This document shows, one piece after another, positions 7,575 through 62,106 of a stretch of DNA of 64,000 nucleotides. The position numbers were made by a program, and so were the translations under genes. This DNA comes from Desulfosporosinus youngiae DSM 17734 (GTDB lineage: Bacteria > Bacillota > Desulfitobacteriia > Desulfitobacteriales > Desulfitobacteriaceae), in NCBI RefSeq assembly GCF_000244895.1, contig NZ_CM001441.1, positions 744,001 to 808,000 on the forward strand, written 5' to 3'. Positions within the stretch are counted from its first letter, which is position 1. The number at the start of each line of letters is the position of its first letter. The notes beneath the pieces are model-generated. The model was not told the origin of the DNA and did not search any database. It was given only the letters and a program-made list of their open reading frames with translations.

Positions 7575-7599
7575 GGGTATTGACAAATGAATAGAAAAT

Positions 7600-7668
7600 G
7601 TTCATATAGTCGCAGTGATAAGGTCTGCAAGTTTCTACCGGACTACCGTAAATAGTCCGACTATGAGC
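7600..7668 (+). ncRNA. Purine riboswitch aptamer 1
   Basis: The core matches the purine aptamer. P1 is formed by GTTCATA and TATGAGC. P2 is closed by GCAG/CTGC with loop GATAAGG. J2/3 is AAGTTTCTACC, and P3 has loop CCGTAAA. The base before GACTATG is C, the position that selects guanine/hypoxanthine/xanthine over adenine. P3 has 7 pairs, one more than the Bacillus xpt aptamer, and P2 ends in a U-U mismatch. It precedes the PucG-like aminotransferase, pointing to control of purine breakdown. Confidence 0.93.
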
Positions 7669-7701
7669 GAAAGTGTACGCTACTTTTATGTTTGGATCAC
7701 A

Positions 7702-9546: not shown

Positions 9547-9571
9547 AAGCTCAGATTGACAAATAAATAGT

Positions 9572-9640
9572 GTTCATATAGTCGCAGAGATATGGTCTGC
9601 AAGTTTCTACCGGACTGCCGTAAATTGTCCGACTATGAGC
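9572..9640 (+). ncRNA. Purine riboswitch aptamer 2
   Basis: This aptamer is nearly identical to aptamer 1. P2 is GCAGA/TCTGC with the canonical loop GATATGG. J2/3 is AAGTTTCTACC and P3 carries loop CCGTAAA. A C precedes GACTATG, giving guanine/hypoxanthine/xanthine specificity. P3 is again longer than usual, but its upper pairs are T-T and G-T. It precedes the three-gene molybdenum hydroxylase operon. Confidence 0.93.
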
Positions 9641-9713
9641 GAAAGATGTACGAAGGGCTTATGTCCCACTCGTACAGATCCAATGACTTTTCTTTAAAGG
9701 TCCTTGGATTATA

Positions 9714-25400: not shown

Positions 25401-25690
25401 AGAAGAGTCGCCCATGCCGCTGCGCAGCACCAGCAGAGGATGAAAATAGATCCTTTGGGTCGGGCGGCTTCGTCCACATCCGCTCACCGCAGCACTCCGA
25501 GGCTGGCCCACTCGCCGGTGCGGGACTCCGCCAAACCTCAGGGTAGTACCTGATGTGAACCTGTGGCTACGTTTCTCCGCACCGTCTTGTGGGCTTTTAC
25601 CGCCTCTCCATGCAAATGGGTTCGCTTCTGTGGACGAAGCTGCCCTGCTTGCGGGCCTAGGGACTCTTCTGCATGTCTTTTGTGGGTCTT
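25401..25690. repeat. GC-rich structured repeat element, copy A
   Basis: This is the same sequence family as the tandem pair at 61424-62040. A 17-bp closing stem pairs 25462-25478 with 25629-25645 (one G-T). Nested inside are GAGGC/GCCTC with GCCCAC/GTGGGC (25499-25511 with 25589-25606) and GGTGCGG/CCGCACC (25517-25523 with 25577-25583). A small head hairpin (GCTGCGCAGC) precedes it. The ends carry AGAAGAGTC (25401-25409) and its inverse (25662-25670). A 1-nt insertion relative to copies B and C breaks any shared reading frame. No protein is supported. Confidence 0.85.
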
Positions 25691-61025: not shown

Positions 61026-61418
61026 ATGAAGATTCTAATTGCCGAGGATGATCTGGCGAGCAGGAAATTTCTTTCTAAATTTCTTGCAAAGTATGGAGAA
61101 GTCGATTTGGTAGTGGATGGGTTAGAAGCATTGGATGCTTACTTAATGTCTTTAAAAGAGACTCCTTACGATTTAATATGCTTGGATATTATGATGCCTA
61201 AGGTTGATGGGGTAAAGGTGTTAAAGGCCATCCGGGAATATGAGGCAAAGCGAGGGGTTTCCCAGCAAGAACGTGTTAATGTCATAATGACGACGGCATT
61301 AGCGGAAACGGATTTTGTTAAGAAGGCTTTTGATGTCGGGTGTGAGGCTTATGCTGCGAAGCCTATTGATACGAATAAGTTGCTGGAAGTTATGAGGAAG
61401 CTGGGGCTTATAGAGTAG
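61026..61418 (+). CDS. Single-domain response regulator
   Basis: The 130-aa receiver has LIAEDDLASRKFL, the phospho-Asp in LICLDIMMPKVDG near residue 56, the Thr in IMTTALAETD and Lys in AYAAKPIDT. There is no output domain. It sits 14 nt after the hybrid kinase gene, behind GAAGGAGGAG. It is probably a shuttle between that kinase and the HPt protein downstream. The repeat array begins a few bases after its stop. Confidence 0.9.
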   Translation: MKILIAEDDLASRKFLSKFLAKYGEVDLVVDGLEALDAYLMSLKETPYDLICLDIMMPKVDGVKVLKAIREYEAKRGVSQQERVNVIMTTALAETDFVKKAFDVGCEAYAAKPIDTNKLLEVMRKLGLIE

Positions 61419-61423
61419 GGGCT

Positions 61424-61712
61424 ATGCCGGTGTCGTGGTGCCTAGCAGAGGAGGAAAAAGGGACGGGTCCGGGTCGGGCATCTTCGCCCACATCCGCTCA
61501 CTCAGCATTCCGAGGCTGGCCCACGCGCCGGTGCGGGACTTCGCCAAACCTCCGGGTAGTACCTGATGTGAACCCCTGGCTCCGTTTTCCCGCACCGTCT
61601 TGTGGGCTTTTACCGCCTCTCCATGCAATGGGTTCGCTTCTGTGGGCGAAGCTGCCCTGCTTGTGGGTCTGGGATTCTTCTGTATGTCTTTAGGGTCTTT
61701 TTTCCGGGGAGT
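61424..61712. repeat. GC-rich structured repeat element, copy B (tandem array unit 1)
   Basis: The unit is 289 bp by distance to the same point in copy C. The closing stem pairs 61476-61492 with 61641-61657 (17 positions, one mismatch). It carries a C-G pair where copy A has T-A, a compensatory change. The inner stems GAGGC/GCCTC, GCCCAC/GTGGGC and GGTGCGGG/CCCGCACC are kept. The head hairpin is diverged in this copy. Open frames across it differ between copies and look like by-products of GC content. Confidence 0.85.
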
Positions 61713-61999
61713 TGTCCATGCCGCTAAGGCGGCACCGGCAAAGGATGAAAAGGACGCTCGGGTCGGGCAGCTTCGCCCACATCCGCTTACCGCAGCATTC
61801 CGAGGCTGGCCCACGCGCCGGTGCGGGACTTCGCCAAACCTCCGGGTAGTACCTGATGTGAACCCGTGGCTCCGTTTCCCCGCACCGTCTTGTGGGCTTT
61901 TACCGCCTCTCCATGCAATGGGTTCGCTTCTGTGGACGAAGCTGCCCTGGCTTTGGGGCCTGGGATTCTTCTGTATGTCTTTAGGGTCTTTTCGGAGTA
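61713..61999. repeat. GC-rich structured repeat element, copy C (tandem array unit 2)
   Basis: The closing stem pairs 61765-61781 with 61931-61947 with one non-Watson-Crick position (C opposite A on the plus strand, G-U if read on the minus strand). The head hairpin is GCCGC/GCGGC with a TAAG loop, followed by a GATGAAAA-type tail. Confidence 0.85.
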
Positions 62000-62040
62000 G
62001 CCGCCCATGCCGCTGGCGCGGCACCGGCAGAGGATGAAAA
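62000..62040. repeat. Partial head of a third array unit
   Basis: The head hairpin (GCCGCTGGCGCGGC) and the AGAGGATGAAAA tail are present, but the body is missing. The array thus ends in a truncated unit. Confidence 0.7.
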
Positions 62041-62106
62041 CGGGAGTCTTCTTTTTCAGGGCAGGTTAGCTAATAATTAAACCTAATTGTTAGGAGGCAG
62101 GAATAG

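Follow-up and report, generated by a model that had tools for sequence, protein, structure and literature searches.

A tandem repeat array in Desulfosporosinus youngiae with a covarying fold: a probable non-autonomous mobile element carrying a structured RNA

The repeat array and its location

The sequence analysed (termed the window) is a 64,000-nt stretch of the Desulfosporosinus youngiae DSM 17734 genome (contig NZ_CM001441.1, positions 744,001–808,000); coordinates given without a locus number are those of the window. A repeat array lies between a receiver gene (positions 61026–61418) and an HPt gene and spans positions 61413–62064. It consists of two hairpin bodies of 190 bp with hairpin heads of about 40 bp between and flanking them. 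TRF gives a period of 290 with 2.0 copies and 91% matches at positions 61470–62040, and a 165-nt core is directly repeated with 96% identity at a spacing of 290. This agrees with the original prediction, which was made from the sequence alone and described a tandem unit of about 289 bp.

The left junction displays the motif GAGTAG (61413–61418, plus strand), which is also found at empty sites in sister species; its TAG doubles as the receiver gene's stop codon. Next is a degenerate head hairpin, head 0 (61419–61459, minus strand), which aligns with the other heads and would be the 3′ domain of unit 1 in the RNA sense. Because this head precedes body 1, the array is longer than first stated. 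Body 1 (61470–61658, minus strand) has a closing stem and matches the covariance model built here with 220.4 bits. It is followed by the inter-unit junction repeat TTTTTTCCGGGGAG (degenerate TTTTTTCAGAGTAG; 61698–61711, plus strand), as judged by its sequence and the family consensus, and by the head 1 hairpin (61712–61751, minus strand), which is recognized by the direct repeat and the head profile. Body 2 (61759–61948, minus strand; 234.8 bits) includes the most conserved segment of the element, a 31-nt apical core, GGTTCACATCAGGTACTACCCGGAGGTTTGG (61834–61864, minus strand), seen in the alignment and in pattern matches at loci of the same genome. A second junction repeat, TTTTCGGAGTAG (61989–62000, plus strand), is of the type found at other family junctions. 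The array closes with a mini unit that has a head but no body: the head 2 hairpin (62001–62040, minus strand; direct repeat and head profile) and the right terminal motif CGGGAGTCTTCTTTTTCAGGGCAG (62041–62064, plus strand), an ending shared with other arrays. Thus the two full units of the original prediction are present, but its partial third unit is a head hairpin without a body.

The closing stems pair positions 61476–61492 with 61641–61657 and positions 61765–61781 with 61931–61947, exactly as predicted, with 94% complementarity across their 17 nt, and the inner stem GCCCACGCGCCGGTGCGGG/CCCGCACCGTCTTGTGGGC is likewise present. There are no promoter-like or terminator-like sites in the array, and expression, if any, may therefore depend on neighboring genes.

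A third body copy is found elsewhere in the window (25456–25646, minus strand; 222.3 bits), with its own head preceding it on the plus side (the head is in locus L037). The window also contains two purine riboswitch aptamers separated by about 2 kb (7582–7683 and 9554–9655, plus strand; 85.1 and 81.9 bits).

Secondary structure and covariation

The minus strand of positions 61740–62040 folds with a predicted energy of −140.6 kcal/mol (z = −6.1; 0 of 100 shuffles), and the plus strand folds far more poorly (z = −2.0). The minus strand is therefore the predicted RNA sense.

An alignment of 48 bodies, 187–191 nt in length, has an apical 31 nt that is almost invariant. RNAalifold shows 48 base pairs for these bodies, 17 with compensatory changes. 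When the GCCCAC/GTGGGC helix, an inner helix of the original prediction, is added to the model, 97% of the cells are paired and 53 are doubly changed, compared with 10.5 after shuffling. A larger alignment of 70 matches, which was fitted to the model and in which some entries are the same hairpins matched in reverse complement, has 91% of its cells paired, versus 68% after shuffling, and 685 doubly changed cells, versus 207 in shuffled and 78–129 in slid controls. Two-sided changes are found in 42 of the 48 pairs; the observed values are reached by 0 of 500 shuffles, and the slid controls collapse. In this alignment, which reaches the heliobacteria, many outer-stem pairs use all four Watson–Crick types. 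A count cleaned of the reverse-complement matches leaves the covariation picture unchanged. The original prediction had proposed a covariance-model search and had named random stem substitutions as one adverse outcome; the substitutions are compensatory, and covariation lies far above both the shuffled and the slid controls. On the sequence evidence, the covariation across the 70 aligned matches is considered decisive.

In the 48 bodies the ratio of G-U to A-C cells is 226:16 for the minus strand, versus 49:34 for the best plus-strand fold. This excess appears to favor a single-stranded RNA (or single-stranded DNA) form of the minus strand; it is supportive and not proof, since the minus fold was predicted with G-U pairs allowed. 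Single-stranded DNA hairpins could tolerate G-T pairs as well. Inspection by eye shows tandem G-A/A-G steps in internal loops, e.g. GCGAAC versus GUGAGC.

Distribution of the element

Blastn searches of the 5.66-Mb D. youngiae genome show about 41 near-complete copies with 84%–94% identity to the query. The covariance model detects at least 56, a minimum because it equals the number of candidates scored. In the same taxonomic family, 34 of 46 genomes have matches; other genera have up to 53 and 34 copies, and some relatives have few or none. Among 398 genomes across the phylum, further matches are found in only two genomes of one other family, with 6 and 8 copies of a related core. A pattern search for the related core gives Heliobacterium mobile, H. 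chlorum and Heliorestis acidaminivorans.

The copies are intergenic and are found in either orientation to genes. The orientation of 40 copies to their neighboring genes is the same in 17, opposite in 11, divergent in 8 and convergent in 4. Searches of viral contigs, phages and plasmids show no match to the element, and carriage by any of these was therefore rejected.

Neither the window array nor the heliobacterial and other relatives match an Rfam 15 family at the gathering score, and the best hit of the array at a relaxed threshold (E-value = 1.1) is far below gathering. A known RNA family is thus rejected at the level of Rfam, in line with the original prediction of an undescribed RNA. A limited set of open-access literature has no account of such repeats or structured RNAs in these genera, and the main text of Weinberg 2010 (PMC2864571) does not mention Desulfitobacterium or Heliobacterium.

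Insertion sites

The purB-purC and spoIID-queA sites, which are conserved in sister species, hold the element in D. youngiae but in none of the other genus members compared, a comparison in which two purB loci without a placed far flank and one partly placed spoIID locus are uninformative. In three close species, where flanks are mostly 90%–97% identical, some copies are shared and others are not.

Three examples will be given of filled and empty sites. In the first (L284 filled, L298 empty), the sequence TTTTAGAGTA is present once at the empty site and is found near-identically at both ends of the insert. In the second (L259 versus L314 and L315), a native GAGTAG or GGGTAG is at the junction, and L259 carries extra flank sequence. 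In the third (L246/L307), the left motif is AATTAGC and there is no right copy. A target duplication is thus clear in one pair only (L284/L298) and is absent in L246/L307. Two other loci, L286 and L293, were considered as pre-insertion sites and rejected; these are deletions of most or all of the hairpin body that left short remnants.

Where close sister species are compared, units have entered at a T-rich ...AGAGTAG motif, and the junctions within arrays are TTTTT(C)AGAGTAG-like. This resemblance to the target motif means that arrays are naturally explained by the entry of new units into old ends. In at least four arrays (at the receiver gene, L007, L012 and L088), the left TAG ends a long upstream open reading frame. 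At two pairs of orthologous sites (L249/L266 and L251/L263), with flanks 96%–97% identical, clearly different members of the family are present. This could result from repeated use of a site or from gene conversion.

A 403-aa open reading frame just downstream of an element copy (L010:1987–3198) presumably encodes an IS110-type transposase. The sequence following an element copy in L095 is similar to the flank in L010, which suggests that an IS110-like insertion sequence may target the end of the element.

Modules and variants

A second type of body, module B, of roughly 280–380 bp, is found behind the same head in the D. youngiae genome (L004 after position 1786; L098:1685–1715; L007:1323–1353). 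Module B has the same apical core as the main body; relative to the head that both share, this core lies on the other strand. In several copies of the element the body is extended at fixed positions by one or two additional hairpin domains. Whole hairpin domains can also distinguish near-identical bodies that occupy one and the same site in different sister species (L254 versus L261 and L273; L265 versus L274). One array of the D. youngiae genome, in L106, has a run of N, reflecting masked or withheld bases, at about positions 1500–1600.

Nature of the element

The repeat is probably a non-autonomous, site-preferring mobile element in which a structured RNA is conserved. It displays a covarying structure, dispersal, recent insertion, a junction motif and no shared coding frame. 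The original prediction had offered an undescribed structured RNA or a non-autonomous mobile element, and the evidence points to both at once. New relative to that prediction are the minus-strand RNA sense, the presence of at least 56 copies, site-specific insertion, module B of opposite polarity and the heliobacterial relatives.

In the proposed model, a unit read in the RNA sense (minus strand) would have a 5′ tail, then the body of about 190 nt, a single long interrupted hairpin with the nearly invariant 31-nt apical core, and then the head hairpin of about 40 nt, ending in ...GGCUACUCUG-A(n). Insertion would take place preferentially at a T-rich (C)AGAGTAG, sometimes exactly at the GAG-TAG end of a gene. 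This would leave the motif at each end of the insert, and later units entering these terminal motifs would give rise to tandem arrays. An enzyme supplied in trans may recognize the folded minus strand by its stem and apical core. Joining may be guided by complementarity between the unit end CUACUCUGAAAA and the target strand TTTTCAGAGTAG. This complementarity would suit either RNA-primed joining or a recombinase that acts on matching ends, without separating the two.

A possible, though less probable, origin is a DNA-level transposon remnant, i.e. a MITE whose mobility came from a DNA transposase, a rolling-circle/HUH enzyme or a site-specific recombinase and in which the hairpins matter as single-stranded DNA or cruciforms and not as RNA. 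The sequence-specific target that is like the element ends, the tandem arrays and the terminal head hairpin beside an end are all consistent with this, and palindrome deletion typically produces losses such as those of the hairpin bodies in sister species. However, the apical core and the covariation across two families exceed what transposon ends need, and the G-U/A-C asymmetry favors one strand in RNA form. The GTAG beside the head suggested mobilization by a Y1/RAYT enzyme, but three genomes with 56, 24 and 8 copies (G003, G035 and G063) show zero matches to the Y1 transposase (PF01797). Such an enzyme is thus not required. The head profile also gives no match at L077, the RAYT-like locus of D. 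youngiae.

One of the two mechanisms possible for a mobile element carrying a structured RNA is RNA-templated and SINE-like: the minus transcript would be reverse-transcribed into TTTTCAGAGTAG sites, with base pairs forming between its 3′ end, CUACUCUGAAAA, and the nicked target strand. On this reading, which seems unlikely, a large structured RNA without a protein of its own would be copied by a reverse transcriptase of host or foreign origin and would have survived in two or more bacterial families. An RNA end complementary to the target, the A-run at the RNA 3′ end, the native TTTTAGAGTA at the empty site and the RNA-type covariation fit this mechanism, but no reverse transcriptase partner has been identified and most units look full length rather than 5′-truncated. 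Nor is there an Rfam match to a group II intron or another RNA family linked to reverse transcriptase; group II intron RNA (domain V) in particular has no Rfam match in the window, the array or the relatives.

Still less likely is a cis-regulatory RNA (an attenuator or stability element) that acts on the flanking operons and has spread through infrequent movement of the BOX/ERIC type. Such a role could account for intergenic copies, some of them at gene ends, and for the 17 of 40 that are co-directional with both neighbors. A consistent sense orientation upstream of related genes, as for riboswitches, is however not seen among these 40 copies; the mixed orientation argues against a cis-acting mRNA element, the flanking genes are unrelated, no terminator-like site is present, and the structured strand in the window runs antisense to the operon. 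Regulation of the receiver/HPt operon itself was rejected, as matches to the HPt protein are found in 7 of 30 genus genomes and the copy orientations are mixed. A protein-coding repeat is hardly conceivable: long open frames occur in the array, but the frame is lost between copies, none is open throughout all 48 bodies (in line with the original prediction of no consistent open reading frame), body length varies by 1–4 nt, and no Pfam family is found above cut-off.

Comparison with known repeat elements

BOX, ERIC and RUP repeats are non-autonomous, dispersed, intergenic, non-coding and modular, form stable hairpins and are presumed to be mobilized in trans. The element described here is likewise dispersed, intergenic, non-coding, modular and hairpin-forming, and, as with BOX and ERIC, recent insertion polymorphism is seen. 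It differs in its 190-nt body, which covaries across two families around the near-invariant core, and in having tandem arrays and an AGAGTAG-like target. A review (PMC2229807) deals with small mobile sequences of bacteria.

The GTAG-like motif beside a terminal hairpin and the many intergenic copies are also reminiscent of REP/RAYT (TnpA_REP) systems, but units of about 290 bp with a structured RNA body are not. No transposase was found between two heads in the loci examined. HEARO/omega RNAs and group II introns share with the element a large conserved fold linked to mobility; the element differs from these in having no Rfam match even at relaxed threshold and no identified associated nuclease or reverse transcriptase. 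The element thus appears new to the catalogues. Its lifestyle resembles that of BOX and ERIC, and it differs from these in fold size, covariation, phylogenetic depth and target preference.

Bacterial mobile repeats that reach many copies tend to be short and of simple structure. In this element a fold of about 190 nt is kept by compensatory change across genera, a related form is present in a second family, and copies are still moving between sister species. Maintenance of the fold during ongoing movement implies machinery that reads the fold. Dozens of genomes thereby gain an RNA family absent from the catalogues, and the element offers a system for probing the mobility of a structured RNA that has no protein of its own.
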